DNA of 35,881 nt from Syncephalis plumigaleata (lineage: Eukaryota > Zoopagomycota > Zoopagomycetes > Zoopagales > Piptocephalidaceae), in NCBI GenBank assembly GCA_025201365.1, contig JAIXMF010000122.1:1-35881 (forward strand), given 5' to 3'. The notes beneath the pieces are model-generated. The model had not been told where the DNA came from, ran no database searches, and saw nothing but the letters and a program-made list of their open reading frames with translations. Below, one piece after another: positions 10,541 to 19,220 of this stretch. The stretch's first letter is position 1, and each line of letters starts with the position of its first letter. The position numbers and the translations under genes were made by a program.

Positions 10541-11016
10541 ATTATATCAAATTATATGAAATAAATTGAAATACTTTATTTATAATTGTATCGGAGTTTT
10601 GAGTTACATCGTCAAGATCATCATCGATCTTGTCTCATTTCTACGATCACAATTGATGTATTCAATATATATGTATACATACCACTAGTCTACTTGTACT
10701 AAATGATTGATAATGAATTAGTTGTATATGAATCTACTTGAATATCTCTTTGTCTAGTATAGATTAGGTGTGGTATGCTTGTTTCTGAATGATCACGGGT
10801 AACTTCGGATCTTATTTCGTGTTTTGCCCTCCTATTCTTTAATAGCTATTTTTCTTTTTGCATCGTTTAGCAAATCTATTTATACCTCCGACCCAACTGC
10901 CACGTGCCTGCAGGGCAACCGCGTGCAGCTTACTTTTATCGCTTCGCTTCTCTGTACGCATCACCCACCGCTTCTTTGATCTTTTTCCCGTTTAATTCTC
11001 GTCCTACACTCTAATC
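10541..11016. other. Intergenic region with METTL4 3' end and AGC1 promoter
   Basis: The left part is AT-rich (METTL4 3' flank, with AATAAA-like AAATAAATTG soon after the stop). The right part, 10880-11016, is locally GC-richer and pyrimidine-rich and precedes AGC1. No additional gene is visible. Confidence 0.5.
10878..10906 (+). promoter_or_regulatory. Possible AGC1 core promoter: TATA-like site and CACGTG E-box
   Basis: A TTTATACC TATA-like element near 10879-10886 and a palindromic CACGTG E-box at 10901-10906 lie 110-140 bp upstream of the AGC1 start codon. CACGTG is bound by bHLH factors in fungi and animals; its use here is inferred from position only. Confidence 0.35.
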
Positions 11017-13329
11017 ATGTCAGCTTCTGCTAGTACGGCGACTTCAGAGGCCACCCTAGCCACGGCTAATCGGGCAGCTACCAGTGACACTGCTCCTAAA
11101 ACCACACCTACTGCCACGCTAGGACTAGCAATGACTAGTCGTATGAGTGATGAGGAACTACAACGCTACCATGTTATATTTCATCGTTATGCCACACCTC
11201 ATACGGATGGCGAGCTGTATCTAGATGCCGACAGCTTCCTCGTTTGTATGGACCAACTGGTGGCGGGCGGTATTGGGGGACCACCGGTCGACGAAGCAGA
11301 AGCTGCGCAGGATATGATGGCCACGCGTCCAGTACGACTGAGCGAGGAGCATTGCCGTCTATTGTTCGACACGGCCGATCGACGACGACAGAATCGGGTT
11401 AGTCTAGACGATTTCATTGCATTCCAAAAGATTATCAGTCGTCCCGATGCCGAGTATCAGCTGGCCTATCGTGTATTCGATCCTGAAGGTTCGGGTAGGA
11501 TTAAGATGGAGCGTTTCCGCTACCTACTACGTAATGGTCTTCAAGCCGATTCGCCGCCATTCGATCCCGATTGCGACTGGCTTCGACTATACGATCATGC
11601 CGGCGTGAAAGGCGATGGACGCGACTGGTGGACGTACGCGGAGTTCGCCCAATTATTACGCGGGTTGCCGGGTGAACGGCTCCGCCAAGCGTTTCGTCAC
11701 TACGACACGGCCGGCATCGGTTACATATCACCGGAGGCATTCCGTGATATGGTAGCCTCGTTGGCACGACATAGATTATCGGCCTATGTGCTCAATAATA
11801 TCACCGGATTGTGCTCGGATATAGAATTTGAACGGGAGTCGGGTATGGCGGATGAACCATTAGATGCATCTGGCGAACCCAGTACCGTGCGTGGACGTGT
11901 CAATTATGCAACTATTCGCGCGTTTTACAACGTGGTGCGTCAACTCGACAGTATAGAATCGGTTATCCGTGTGGCATCACGTCATAGTCACGACGGACGT
12001 ATAGATAGAATGGATTTCGCAGAAGCTGCCGCTAAACTGGGTCGATCGGCCATGTTCTCCCCTCTTGAAGTGAACATCATCTTTCATTTCGTTAAGCTCG
12101 AACATCCCGGCACCAATCGATTCCTACCGCGAGACTTTCGTCTATTGATCGATCCTGGATGGCGGGCACCTCCCCAGGACGAGGGTCAACTGGATGATGA
12201 TAATAAAATACCCGAGAAGAAAACAGCGAGTATAGCGGCTAATTTTGGTTTAGAGGCTGCACGTCAAGCTTATAGCTTTGTACTCGGTGCGATTGGTGGT
12301 GCTGTCGGTGCAACCGTCGTCTATCCGATTGATCTTGTCAAGACACGTATGCAGAATCAACGCTCTGCCGTGGTGGGCGAACTACGCTACCGAAATAGTA
12401 TGGACTGCTTCCGTCAAGTCATCCGTAATGAGGGTGTGCTCGGTTTATACGGCGGTCTTGGCCCGCAACTCGTAGGCGTGGCACCGGAGAAAGCGATTAA
12501 ACTAGTGATGAACGATTTCGTACGTAGCATGTTCAAGGATCCACGCACCGGTGAACTTAAGATATGGCATGAGATCGCGGCTGGTTGCGCGGCCGGTGGC
12601 AGTCAAGTCATCTTCACCAATCCATTGGAGATTGTCAAGATTCGCTTGCAAATCCAAGGTGAAATGGCCAAGGTAACGAATGTACCAAAACGATCGGCCG
12701 TACACATTGTCAAGGAACTCGGCTTGCTAGGTCTGTACAAAGGTGCCGGTGCATGTCTACTACGTGATATTCCATTCTCGGGCATCTACTTTACCGCGTA
12801 TGCTCATCTAAAGAAGGATCTATTCCACGAAGGACGTAACAACAAACGCTTGAGCATTTGGGAGTTGTTGTCGGCCGGTGCCATTGCCGGTATGCCTGCC
12901 GCCTACTTGACCACGCCGGCCGATGTTATTAAAACCCGCTTGCAAGTGGAGGCACGCCAGGGTCAAACGCAATACACGGGCATTGCAGATGCTGCACGTA
13001 AGATTTATCGCGAAGAAGGGTTCCGCGCTTTCTTCAAGGGTGGACCGGCACGTGTACTTCGTTCATCGCCTCAATTCGGTACGACATTGATGGTGTACGA
13101 GTTATTGCAGAACTGGCTACCATTCTCGCAGATTGAAAATACACTTGGTTGGGGTGCCGTTGGAGCAGAAGTGAAGCGTGAACGCGAGCGTACAAGTATC
13201 GAGAAGATTGCCGATGTTAATCTACGACGAACACGACGTGCACTTCGTCTTTTACAGGATCTTGACTTCCGCTTCGGCGTTTTATCACCTAGTGTGGCAA
13301 ATGCCGCGGTGTCTGCTCACGTTAAATGA
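11017..13329 (+). CDS. AGC1: Calcium-binding mitochondrial aspartate/glutamate carrier (Aralar/AGC1), single exon
   Basis: This inner-membrane carrier exchanges mitochondrial aspartate for cytosolic glutamate plus a proton in the malate-aspartate shuttle. The 770-residue frame has a Ser/Thr/Ala-rich start, an EF-hand-type regulatory region (about residues 45-390, with loops such as DPEGSGRIKMERF near 152 and DTAGIGYISPEAF), then three mitochondrial carrier repeats with signatures PIDLVKTRMQNQR (P437), NPLEIVKIRLQ (P536) and PADVIKTRLQ (P634), about 98 residues apart as expected, and a C-terminal helix. The triplet residues match Aralar/citrin rather than the shorter ATP-Mg carriers. It has no intron, whereas the neighbours average more than five per kb of coding sequence, and its codons are visibly GC-richer. 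Confidence 0.96.
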   Translation: MSASASTATSEATLATANRAATSDTAPKTTPTATLGLAMTSRMSDEELQRYHVIFHRYATPHTDGELYLDADSFLVCMDQLVAGGIGGPPVDEAEAAQDMMATRPVRLSEEHCRLLFDTADRRRQNRVSLDDFIAFQKIISRPDAEYQLAYRVFDPEGSGRIKMERFRYLLRNGLQADSPPFDPDCDWLRLYDHAGVKGDGRDWWTYAEFAQLLRGLPGERLRQAFRHYDTAGIGYISPEAFRDMVASLARHRLSAYVLNNITGLCSDIEFERESGMADEPLDASGEPSTVRGRVNYATIRAFYNVVRQLDSIESVIRVASRHSHDGRIDRMDFAEAAAKLGRSAMFSPLEVNIIFHFVKLEHPGTNRFLPRDFRLLIDPGWRAPPQDEGQLDDDNKIPEKKTASIAANFGLEAARQAYSFVLGAIGGAVGATVVYPIDLVKTRMQNQRSAVVGELRYRNSMDCFRQVIRNEGVLGLYGGLGPQLVGVAPEKAIKLVMNDFVRSMFKDPRTGELKIWHEIAAGCAAGGSQVIFTNPLEIVKIRLQIQGEMAKVTNVPKRSAVHIVKELGLLGLYKGAGACLLRDIPFSGIYFTAYAHLKKDLFHEGRNNKRLSIWELLSAGAIAGMPAAYLTTPADVIKTRLQVEARQGQTQYTGIADAARKIYREEGFRAFFKGGPARVLRSSPQFGTTLMVYELLQNWLPFSQIENTLGWGAVGAEVKRERERTSIEKIADVNLRRTRRALRLLQDLDFRFGVLSPSVANAAVSAHVK

Positions 13330-15339: not shown

Positions 15340-18300
15340 TCAAAACACGACATATTTATTCAATAAATGATTGAATGATCTTGTAGATGTACTTGTTGCT
15401 GTTGTACCAAGGAATAATGACTTGAATAGCATGGACACTAAATGAGGGTCTTGCACCAATACATTCTTGACTTGAATACCTATAATATCTACTTGATGAT
15501 GTCCTTGTCTTGTTCTGTAATCATAATGGATTAGTATGGGTATGATCATTGTGGATTATCACCTCACCATTCCTCAAGATGTCTTAACAATTAACGTGTA
15601 TTCCATTACAATTAATGCGGTATTTGTTATCGTCATACTGCCAACTTACAAGCTATCATACAATCATACGCATATCGTATCGTACATTGATTGTAATCAG
15701 TGTATAGCCTATGATAATCGGAAAGATAACTTACAATCTGATGTATGTCAGCATACGTGGATAACATCCCCCATTGCAATGAGTAATGCGTATACATTGA
15801 CTGGCATGCTCACTTACTTCCTATTATTATTGTTATTTACAATCCACATGGATCGAGTATCACATTATCATTGAGTGATCATACACGATCATCGGAAATA
15901 CCAGCTTACTTGCTATTCGATATGATTGTATCGGATTGCATATCACACATCGATTAGTTGTACATCATGCATTGTGGCTATGCCTTCGTTTGACTTACAT
16001 CCTGTGTTATGCCATTGTGAATGAGCCATGTTACATGTTGCAATCAATGAATCATCCATCGTAGTCGAGATGATTGCTTACTTTCTATTGCCCATTATTG
16101 TATATTAGTCAAGTCGTATTGCATTTAGCATAGCATAGCTTGTCATCAATCCATTGACTTGCCTCCTGTTGTATGTTATTATGCATGGATTGCATGTCGT
16201 ATTGCCATTAGCACATGACATATCACGATCGAATCACTGGCTTGCCTTCTGTTAATCCGGTAATACGTGAATTGTATGCCACATATCGTCATTAGCATGC
16301 CATACATAAAATGAAAAATGCTATCCTACTTTCTTCTATCATACATGATCATACATAAATTATACGACACGAACAGTTAGTTCACCGTATACCTTAATTG
16401 CTATATTAGCTTACTCGCTGTCATGTATCATCATAGGAAGACCATATGTTAATTGCAGTTGGTTCACCATATGGTAACAATCATTCTATTAACCTACTAT
16501 CTGTCATTCATGAACACATGCGAATTGCATGCCACATCGCAATTAGTCCATCGTATGGGGTAAGCACTACGCCAACTCACCAGCTGCCATGCATAATCAT
16601 ACAAAATTCGTGGCATTATAATTAGCTTATCGCACGCTGCGACAAATATGTTTGTTTACCAGCTGTCATTTGTGATCATTCATGAGTTGTATGCCAATTT
16701 ATAGTTAGTTCACCGCATGTTAAATCGTGTACGTTAACTTACTTCCTGTCACATATAATCATATAGGAATCATATTCCGCTCTACAATTAATTCGTCGTA
16801 TGCTGTACTCATTATGTTAATTTACCATCTGACATTAATAAAAATGCATCAAGCATATGACCGAGTTACAATTAGTTTGTCGTGTGCTATGATCGATGCG
16901 TTAACTTACTTCCTGTCGTGTGTAATCATGCGGGAATTATATTTCGATTTACAATCAGTTCATTGCATAGTGAAATCACTATGCTAACTCACTTTCTGTA
17001 GTGAGTAATTATACGGGAATTGTATGATGTACCATGATCAGCTCATTGTATGCTATGGTCAACGTGCTAACTCACTTTCTATCGTTCATAACCATATGCG
17101 AATTGTATGTCATATTGCAATTATTATCTTGTGTACTACAATCAAAATACTAGCTTACCGACTGATACGCATAATCACATAGGAATTGTATGACATAGCA
17201 CTATTAGTGTATCGCTTGCAGTACCCATTATATTACATTACCACCTGATATACATAATCATATAGAAAGTTTATGTCAATTACAATCAGTTCATTGCACG
17301 TCATAGTTGCATATTGACTTACAGTCTACCATGCATAAGCATAGATTGACGATGTTTTACACAATAATTAGTTTATCATACGTTGTGGCCACTCTGCTAA
17401 CTCACTCTCTATCATTCATAAATGCATATGGATTGCATGTCACGTCACGATTAGCATATCACTCATTGTCATTATAGTACTAGCTTACTATTCGCTGTGC
17501 ATAATCGTATACAAATCATGTGCCACATTCCTATTAGTGCACTGTCTATTGTCATTAACATGCTAGCCTACCTTCTGTTGTACGTGATAGTACGTGGATT
17601 GGTTGTATTCCACACTCCAATCAATGTCTCGTATGCTTCACTCGAAATGATAACTTACGGCCTAGTGTATTCCATAGTCATAGGTGAGCTACATTTTAGG
17701 GTTGTAGTCCACGTGATAACTTACACTCTATGTTGTGTGATCACCATACACACACACATATATATGTATATGAATTGTATGAAGCATTTCACTTAGCATG
17801 TCATCCATTATGATTATTGTGATTATTATTAGAATGCTAGCTTACATCTTTCTGCATGTGTTGTTACAAGTCAATCATGTATCATACTACAATCAGCATA
17901 CTGTATCCTATAGTCATCATAATGACTTGCCTCCTATTATTCGTAATAATAAATAAATAATACTTTGATTAGTATGCCGTATACTGACACTGGAATGCCA
18001 ACCTACAATCTATGCCGTGTAATCATCCATCATGATCCATGTTCCTCATTTCGATTAACACATCACACATATCACCATAGGAATGTCTAGTTACCCTCTG
18101 TTACATGGATGCATGCGTGAATCATCAATCAGCTTGTAATTAACCGATCGCACATTGCAATAATCATCACTTACATACTATTACTCGTAATCATATGTGA
18201 ATTGTATGCCATAGGGTAATGAGTACATCGACTAGTAAGACTGGAATGCTAACTTCTTACAATCTATTATGTATGTGTGTGTGTGTGATGCATTGCTATT

Positions 18301-19220
18301 AACACTTTATGCATTAGTATGGAAATGTCCACTTACATACTGGTGCAATCATATGCGAAGAGAATGATGATTGTTGTTGTTGTTAGTAGTACATTATACG
18401 ATGATGCTAGACTAACAACTTACATCCTGTTACAGGTCATCGTACACGTATCATGACATGTCAACTTGTAATGAGCACATCGTATGCTATGATCGAAATG
18501 ATCACCTACATGCTGTCATATATATATGTGTGTGTGTGTGGAATGGCAAGTGAAGCAATTGTGTCATTGCAATTAGCATGACGTATACTGCAATCAGAAT
18601 ACCGCCCACTTACAATCTATTACGCGTCATCATCGGTGAATCGAATGCCACATTCCAACGAGTGCTCGCTTACCCACTAATGCATGCAACCATACGTGAA
18701 TCAAATGGCTCATTACAATGATACTAGTAGCTTACAGGTTCCTATGCATGATAATCATACGGGAATCGATTGCCACATTCCAATGAGCGTATGGCATAGT
18801 ATCATCGTGATTCACAACTCACCTCCTATCATACGAGTATTGCAATCAGTACGTTGTATGTTTATTTAGACAGAATATCAACTTACGTCTGAATCTAGAA
18901 TAGTAATATATGATTTTGATTTACATTCCAGTCAACACGATGTATGTCATGCTCACTCGTTATTTAACTCACCAGCTATGATTGACAGCATCATAGGTGA
19001 CATCATCATTAGTATCGCAATCAATGTCATACGATATAGACTTACCATCTATTGATTGTCATTAGAAAGACCATTAGATAGTAGTATTACAATTAGTATG
19101 TTGACTAGTATCGATGATGATGATGATGATAGAAATACCAGGGGAATTTGATGATACGGATGTTGTATCATTGACTATAGGCTGGCTGTTATTGTTATTG
19201 TTATCAGCAGATGATTCCAT
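15340..19220 (-). CDS. Unidentified gene built from about 42 consecutive microexons, mostly one codon each
   Basis: I do not recognise the product. Exon 1 (19139-19220) starts MESSADNNNNNSQP and ends in phase 1 (CCT G). Microexons in transcript order: 19046-19048 ATG; 18973-18975 CTG; 18887-18894 ATTCAGAC; 18823 GAG; 18736 GAACCT; 18674 TGG; 18614 ATT; 18510 CAT; 18424 GAT; 18337 TAT; 18261 ATT; 18175 TAT; 18095 AGG; 18007 ATT; 17931 GAG; 17846 AAAGAT; 17725 AGT; 17659 GCC; 17572 AAG; 17489 CGAATA; 17406 AGA; 17323 ACT; 17242 GTG; 17159 TCG; 17076 AAA; 16993 AAA; 16910 GAA; 16826 ATG; 16743 GAA; 16660 CTG; 16581 CTG; 16498 ATA; 16415 CGA; 16330 AAGAAA; 16246 AAG; 16163 GAG; 16082 AAA; 15999 GAT; 15910 CAA; 15818 GAA; 15735 ATT; 15650 CTT (lowest plus-strand coordinate given). 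Each is preceded by CAG or TAG and followed by GTRAGT-like or GCAAG sequence. After the 8-nt exon everything stays in phase 0, reading EEPWIHDYIYRIEKD and later, with S/T cap, SKKEMELLIRKKKEKDQE, a charged helix. The other two phases contain stops. The last exon begins at 15514; its frame is unresolved: 15340-15514 holds an open frame including VDIIGIQVKNVLVQDPHLV, and an alternative frame ends at 15356. The peptide might instead be non-functional. Confidence 0.72.
15653..19138 (-). repeat. Tandem array of about 42 homologous introns, period about 83 bp
   Basis: Read on the plus strand this is a highly diverged satellite whose units carry CTAACTTAC-NNN-CTGTCAT. On the minus strand each unit is a complete intron: a GTAAGTTAGC-like 5' end, a middle with GCATACGATG and ACTAATTG, then GTGGCATACAATTC, CGTATGATTATG and a GACAG/ATAG 3' end. 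Thirteen of the introns are exactly 80 nt and most others are 76-90; outliers (57-63, 101, 118) reflect internal loss or growth of CA/TA runs. Similarity between units is partial, so the array is old. No similar motif is visible in the other introns of the window. Confidence 0.85.

Follow-up and report, generated by a model that had tools for sequence, protein, structure and literature searches.

Can a eukaryotic gene be written one codon per exon over dozens of exons? The question is raised by a locus of the fungal parasite Syncephalis plumigaleata, located on contig JAIXMF010000122.1 of assembly GCA_025201365.1 (positions 1 to 35,881, forward strand; this whole stretch of 35,881 nucleotides (nt) is called the window). 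An earlier note, made from the letters alone, had proposed here a minus-strand gene with about 42 consecutive microexons, 37 of them a single codon long, and had treated it as a single unusual gene. We consider it very probable that the gene is real and that it is one member of a large S. plumigaleata family of one-codon-exon genes, in which spliceosomal introns of about 80 nt separate codons that are joined in phase 0, mostly into secreted pre-pro-peptides. Such genes would be similar to the microexon genes (MEGs) of schistosomes, but more extreme.

Anatomy of the window gene and its introns

Exon-by-exon rebuilding of the locus gave 42 microexons in succession between positions 15650 and 19048 of the minus strand, 37 of 3 nt, four of 6 nt and one of 8 nt, so that the earlier counts proved exact. 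The exon list was corrected by hand from the visible splice sites; automatic parsers that use signals only mis-set a few exons. As the earlier note had described, every unit consists of YAG, the microexon and a donor, G(T/C)RR, and this was seen at each of them. The parts of the gene are as follows.

19139..19220, minus strand: exon 1, 82 nt, from the ATG to a phase-1 donor GTATTT, encoding MESSADNNNNNSQPIVNDTTSVSSNSP plus 1 nt (exon-by-exon rebuild)
18887..18894, minus strand: 8-nt exon restoring the phase from 1 to 0 (exon-by-exon rebuild; the paralogue L041 also has 8 nt)
17317..19048, minus strand: 5' part of the microexon array, ATG ... ACT (exon rebuild and copy comparison)
16303..17316, minus strand: middle of the array (GTG TCG AAA AAA GAA ATG GAA CTG CTG ATA CGA AAGAAA), largely private (copy comparison)
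15650..16302, minus strand: 3' part of the array (AAG GAG AAA GAT CAA GAA ATT CTT; exon rebuild and copy comparison)
15568..15582, minus strand: terminal coding exon, 15 nt, ACATCTTGAGGAATG, stop TGA; it follows AAG, not YAG, and L041 has the same exon
15360..15514, minus strand: exon of the 3' untranslated region (UTR), AACAAGACAAGGACATC..., from 15514 and shown as far as the first base of AATAAA at 15360; shared in the family
15653..18613, minus strand: introns matching the profile of the ~80-nt array introns (built from 527 introns), 28 of the 44 introns of the gene

The only departure from multiples of three in the array is the 8-nt exon, which shifts phase 1 to phase 0 as had been claimed. 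Frame 0 is open, now as far as the TGA in the added 15-nt exon, and frames 1 and 2 contain stops. The predicted product is MESSADNNNNNSQPIVNDTTSVSSNSPDADSDEEPWIHDYIYRIEKDSAKRIRTVSKKEMELLIRKKKEKDQEILTS. The 44 introns measure 53-118 nt, 31 of them 76-86 nt.

The ends and the middle of this gene have different relatives. The exon 1 region has 34 matches genome-wide, the window included, of which 27 (the window counted) span the full 211-base query at 90-100%, and the N-termini of the deposited models P0130 and P0131 are near-identical to the exon 1 product. Judged from its sequence, this product, MESSADNNNNNSQPIVNDTTSVSSNSP, does not resemble a signal peptide. Among the 40 of 155 candidates that were scored, at least 24 other copies share the array from 18830 down, with DNA identities of 82-93%, and stop at varied points between about 17526 and 16901; the 3' part is common to at least 14 copies at 90-94%, besides a collinear copy on contig C340. 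Into the middle part, apart from the C340 copy, only three copies extend at 82-86%, and other matches reach 65-77%. The window gene belongs to a second branch of the family: it has no signal-peptide-like leader, its ends are shared, its middle is largely private and its predicted product is charged.

The paralogue L041, together with L073 (C1 1411300-1417700), has 62 three-nt exons in its parse and also exons of 21 and 27 nt, which give a middle that looks coiled-coil-like by eye. Two of its 27-nt exons encode PSYNHIPEE and PSYNHTPEE, and both peptides are present in the deposited model P0129.

The array introns are U2-type by their signals, with a GTRAGY donor, a CTRAY branch site and a YAG acceptor. 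Their profile comes from 527 strict introns, selected for GTRRGY and YAG, whose consensus is 80 nt long and contains GTAAGT and TACTAAY; the A of the branch site lies most often 42 nt before the end, and the branch motif is at its expected place in 454 of them. Around 637 three-nt exons of the family, acceptors are YAG in 627 cases and donors GTAAGT in 499 and GTAAGC in 50. This profile had no match elsewhere in the window (E 0.01) and none in eight scattered loci. No RNA reached the Rfam gathering score in the window, and there is hence no sign of known intron-encoded RNAs. A second intron-like repeat (GTAAGTTGCATTATCACTAATATCACGATAGAATACTAATTATTTATTAG...) occurs in several contigs, e.g. at C24:67952 and C112:1496191. 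Local tandem duplication was rejected as the sole origin of the arrays, intron identity being nearly flat (0.765 at lag 1, 0.747 at lag 12 and 0.752 between genes).

The earlier note had argued that such a gene, if real, challenges models of exon definition. This challenge appears unnecessary: introns that are short and uniform and have near-perfect GTAAGT donors suggest that the intron, not the exon, is the unit recognised (intron definition). U1 normally pairs also with the last bases of the exon, and here these bases are free codons, which may explain why the intron side of the donor hardly departs from its ideal form.

A family of one-codon-exon genes and its predicted secreted branch

The claim of a single unusual gene did not survive a scan of the assembly (32.6 Mb, 383 contigs), which revealed a large gene family in the same genome. 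A pattern of three consecutive units matched 702+566 = 1268 times, against 14+0 = 14 in a reversed control. On both strands of the window and 14 loci, 221 of 374 GTAAGT sites had YAG exactly 3 nt upstream, as did 9 of 287 sites of a control hexamer. The leader ATGAAGTTCTCT... had 91 exact pattern matches genome-wide and the start of the 3'UTR exon 73 exact copies, neither being found in the control, and of 204 candidates for the 3'UTR exon 40 were scored; a first pattern for the stop exon was dropped, as it matched 70 times against 51 in the control. By crude scaling, the assembly may hold roughly 2400-2900 three-nt exons.

We parsed 33 family genes, 13 reached through the first array matches (the window included) and 20 picked by leader similarity, mostly with a known 3' end; because of this choice, the mix of branches in the sample differs from that of the genome. 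The same plan is seen throughout: for the most part a leader exon comes first, one exon restores the phase, and a stop exon precedes the shared 3'UTR. Two loci, L047 and L049, were left out as another gene type. L047 (C1 ~2256144-2256391) has four 3-nt units at 75-85-nt spacing with introns unlike the array profile and is possibly an independent case.

Do the triplets code? The parser called exons from scores for donor, acceptor and branch site and from intron length, with a flat prior of 1-30 nt on the length of exons; codon information played no part in it. Applied to a first set of 30 genes, it returned 743 internal exons, of which 637 are 3 nt long and 704 have a length divisible by three. 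Not one of the 637 three-nt exons is a stop codon, against 47 expected from the trinucleotides of the introns (P=6e-22, the units not being independent), whereas, once the runs are joined, the two shifted frames have 8 and 66 stops out of ~564. With three genes added, the 33 parses comprise 796 internal exons and 682 of 3 nt, again with 0/682 stops, and 17 of the 33 have an open frame that starts at the ATG and closes with a stop in the final coding exon. The triplets therefore act like codons, and readings of the array as a single intron or as random triplets were rejected on this test.

In 31 of the 33 genes (20 of these 31 selected by leader), exon 1 is a signal-peptide-like leader, 94 nt long in most and encoding MKFSAVIAIAVAVVALTSLVAVEASPVLERR and similar sequences. 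It ends in RR in 28 of the 31, the exceptions being L039, L043 and L051, and the RR-bearing L040 is frame-broken. The dibasic RR is what we take to be a Kex2-like cleavage site, and the products of this branch are accordingly predicted, from sequence, to be secreted and cleaved in the Kex2 manner. After exon 1 come, as a rule, between one and three small exons, L061 having many more; a 2- or 5-nt exon, the usual counterpart of the 8-nt exon of the window gene, then shifts phase 1 to 0, and the single-codon run begins, so that the sequence past RR comes almost wholly from tiny exons. The 3' end is an exon NNN(...)TAAGCR or a variant of it, followed by the shared UTR exon. A cysteine order C ... 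CC ... C is present in 10 of the 31 exon lists (L044, L051, L052, L059, L060, L062, L063, L069, L070 and L072). Ten family proteins gave no Pfam match above the cut-off and three weak ones below it; one of the latter was between the mature peptide of L069 and the chitin-binding family CBM_14 (peritrophin-A), at E=0.017 and 15.7 bits, under the gathering cut-off of 22.1. A sequence search of the PDB with one mature peptide gave no match.

Deposited protein models share residues with these parses. Among seven deposited secreted models, P0125 agreed by far best, its alignment with L068 reading ...PPIHWKD-KTYEMHFENGKGCMFSNG--PGWISPSD-IGPVQ, with 38 of 43 array residues in order; P0124 shared a short run with L060, and the rest little beyond leader or UTR. 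All six matches of the window branch (P0129-P0134) keep W-I(-D)-Y-I-Y, and P0129 and P0130 carry EEHWI-DYIY, in each case from single-codon exons. As proof of transcription the deposited models were rejected, since the codons they drop could be errors of the gene caller.

We propose that a dedicated family of ~80-nt introns (GTAAGT, TACTAAY, YAG) cuts the coding sequence into single codons, and that these introns would be removed one by one through intron definition, joining the codons in phase 0. Most sampled members would yield a secreted pre-pro-peptide, in which exon 1 supplies the signal peptide up to the dibasic site and nearly every codon of the released peptide has an exon to itself, and the window member would combine the same architecture with a charged product and no such leader. 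Each 3-nt unit being frame-neutral, codons could be replaced, gained or lost without a frameshift while the intron scaffold stays unchanged.

Codon change and competing explanations

Two branches were compared for the rate at which codons and introns change. Between the window gene and L041, the 36 exon nt of 12 unit pairs are all identical, whereas 6.3% of the flanking introns differ, a contrast that is suggestive only. In the secreted branch, 41 array-unit pairs in which both flanking introns are at least 90% identical show the opposite, with 20.3% of exon nt (25/123) but 3.2% of intron nt different. Twelve of the 41 codons are changed, all non-synonymously and nine at 2-3 nt, and 29 are unchanged; one unit has gone from CTG to CGT with 0/141 differences in the flanking introns. 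One gene pair, L060/L069, supplies 19 of the 41 pairs; with L060 excluded, the figures are 11.1% (7/63) for exons and 3.9% for introns (P=0.013). These two genes share 27 aligned units with 95.6% intron identity and equal codons in 13 of 26; their cysteine codons are kept, and the match is poor in the introns that flank a few units of the middle. In some secreted members, therefore, codons seem to change faster than the surrounding introns, on few pairs and mostly in one gene pair. A test of equal codons against intron identity over all unit pairs was dropped, because below ~95% identity most pairs were chance matches of the consensus, and pairs that are collinear or match on both flanks were used instead.

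This fast change probably results from point mutations under strong positive selection of the ordinary kind and needs no special mechanism. All 12 changed array codons being non-synonymous, together with the retained cysteine codons of L060/L069, fits such selection, and accelerated evolution of parasite secreted proteins is described in one report (PMC4350168). Transitions and transversions in the array units (12/13 in exons, 140/67 in introns, P=0.07) are also not clearly different. What this explanation accounts for less readily is that so many of the changed codons differ at two or three positions, the CTG to CGT unit among them, and that in a larger set of 61 pairs the exon changes are without the transition bias of the introns (17/23 against 297/124, P=6e-4); 20 of these pairs are small phase-1 exons before the array, from which the contrast largely stems, and the pairs are not independent. 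A more speculative account, which we hold to be rather unlikely, is that the arrays serve to diversify peptides: each codon would act as a frame-neutral cassette between standard introns, and whole codons would be swapped precisely at the exon borders, leaving the introns in place, instead of changing by stepwise mutation.

A different question is whether all codons are used. They may be real but mainly optional, with 3-nt exons included or skipped in combination so that one gene gives a swarm of peptides. All 3-nt exons are frame-neutral, different single codons are left out of the deposited models, and one account describes MEGs as seemingly producing varied proteins through alternative splicing (PMC5825161). 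The donors, however, are mostly the strong GTAAGT, which favours constitutive use, and the omissions may again be gene-caller errors; we regard this possibility as a minority one. We consider it very unlikely that the array is a non-coding repeat of tandem introner-like units that leaves as one long intron with meaningless triplets as spacers, for although unit identity is close between genes (mean 0.752) and within them (0.747-0.766), as in a repeat family, the triplets include no stop, their amino-acid composition is far from that of the intron background (G 69 against 13 expected, K 50 against 6, Y 10 against 49), phase-restoring lengths, the terminal stop exon and cysteine patterns recur, and between the window gene and L041 the N-terminal codons stay where the introns change.

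Several points weigh against the one-codon-per-exon gene. The family is known here from its DNA, and from it we infer actual splicing in RNA. Deposited models drop several codons. Of the 33 automatic parses, 16 are not open; L040, L043, L055, L063 and also L044 appear frame-broken, and L046 and L050 are neither open nor explained. None of the 14 matches in protein searches was to an S. fuscata protein, and support from another species is thus lacking. Ten of the 16 parses, however, are at least partly parser or anchor errors: a longer exon was taken (the window gene, L041, L045), the 5-nt exon is obtained with an AG two bases upstream (L044, L058, L070) or the 3' anchor was at fault (L061, L065, L071, L072), and L045, L061, L065 and L072 are open in an alternative parse. 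As for the breaks, the leaders of L040 and L043 are broken by deletions, L055 is without a phase-restoring length, and L063 and L044 have a frame-shifting 2-nt exon; these five are likely to be decaying copies or assembly errors. Against these points stand an architecture repeated in 33 genes, the N-terminal codons kept in L041 and the residues shared with deposited models, which support the reading of the earlier note.

The window also contains a carrier gene.

10996-13329, plus strand: mitochondrial aspartate/glutamate carrier (AGC), an uninterrupted open reading frame of 777 amino acids (aa), matched to the deposited model P0001

The carrier agrees with S. plumigaleata P0001 at 683 of 685 aligned residues, 47 more being gaps, and is 89% identical to that of S. 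fuscata; P0001 lacks two stretches (the 47 aa of gaps) that are open in frame in the window. The window from 15514 to 18830 is collinear with C340:752028-755312 at 95% identity, a difference of ~5%. The 1,204,813-base contig of P0001 was taken, without proof, to be C340. On this comparison, the window contig may represent the C340 region in a second haplotype, and genome-wide family counts may then include allelic doubles.

Relation to known microexon genes and significance

Of the known systems, the schistosome MEGs and the bicycle genes of aphids come nearest, and we suggest that the Syncephalis family takes the microexon genes of parasites to a new extreme. In MEGs, about 80% of the coding region is reported to consist of short symmetric exons of 6-36 bp (PMC5825161), and another account gives microexons of 3-81 bp and introns of up to 5 kbp (PMC10526429). 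Both belong to parasites, with secreted or exposed products and a coding region made largely of short symmetric exons; the anatomy of the secreted branch, with secretion judged from the leader, has the two marks of a MEG, a secreted product and mostly symmetric-microexon coding, and the window gene has no leader. Here, in contrast, the internal exons are mostly of one codon, tens in a row, separated by homologous ~80-nt introns, in a fungal parasite. The family resembles MEGs in the way it works, and we make no claim of homology. The protein searches gave 14 matches, 13 of them named S. plumigaleata and one a 40-aa protein, and no MEG, in a search that is weak for fast-changing short proteins.

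The bicycle genes are described in one paper as putative effectors with ~17 exons on average, many of them unusually small phase-2 internal exons (PMC9168663). They share with the present genes a family of putative effectors and many tiny internal exons of one phase. The Syncephalis exons, however, are in phase 0 after a 3n+2 exon and measure 3 nt, and the internal exons of bicycle genes are longer than this. Splicing of 3-nt exons as such has been reported in animals, for mouse Ncam and Drosophila TnT (PMC8042270), in cases that are isolated there and not in arrays. Introner elements, many homologous introns of uniform length per genome, are also alike in these respects; introners are dispersed across unrelated genes and bear marks of mobility, and the array introns were found only in arrays, as judged over the window and eight scattered loci. 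No account of one-codon exon arrays was found in the titles and abstract openings of the papers searched.

Syncephalis is a genus of mycoparasites, and S. pseudoplumigaleata is described as obligate (PMC6784888). A large and fast-changing set of small secreted peptides would most simply be host-interface peptides, with a presumed role at the contact of parasite and host. Gene callers, and hence proteomes, can garble such families. In a single genome, tens of genes would spell their proteins in runs of tens of one-codon exons, which marks a lower bound on the size of a coding exon. One-codon exons are too short for exon definition or for the deposition of an exon junction complex, and the arrays offer a natural test of how the spliceosome handles exons below these sizes. 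If it holds beyond a few pairs, the contrast between codons and introns would invert the usual rule of conserved exons and free introns. The family also suggests a route by which a parasite may vary its secreted peptides and keep the frame intact.

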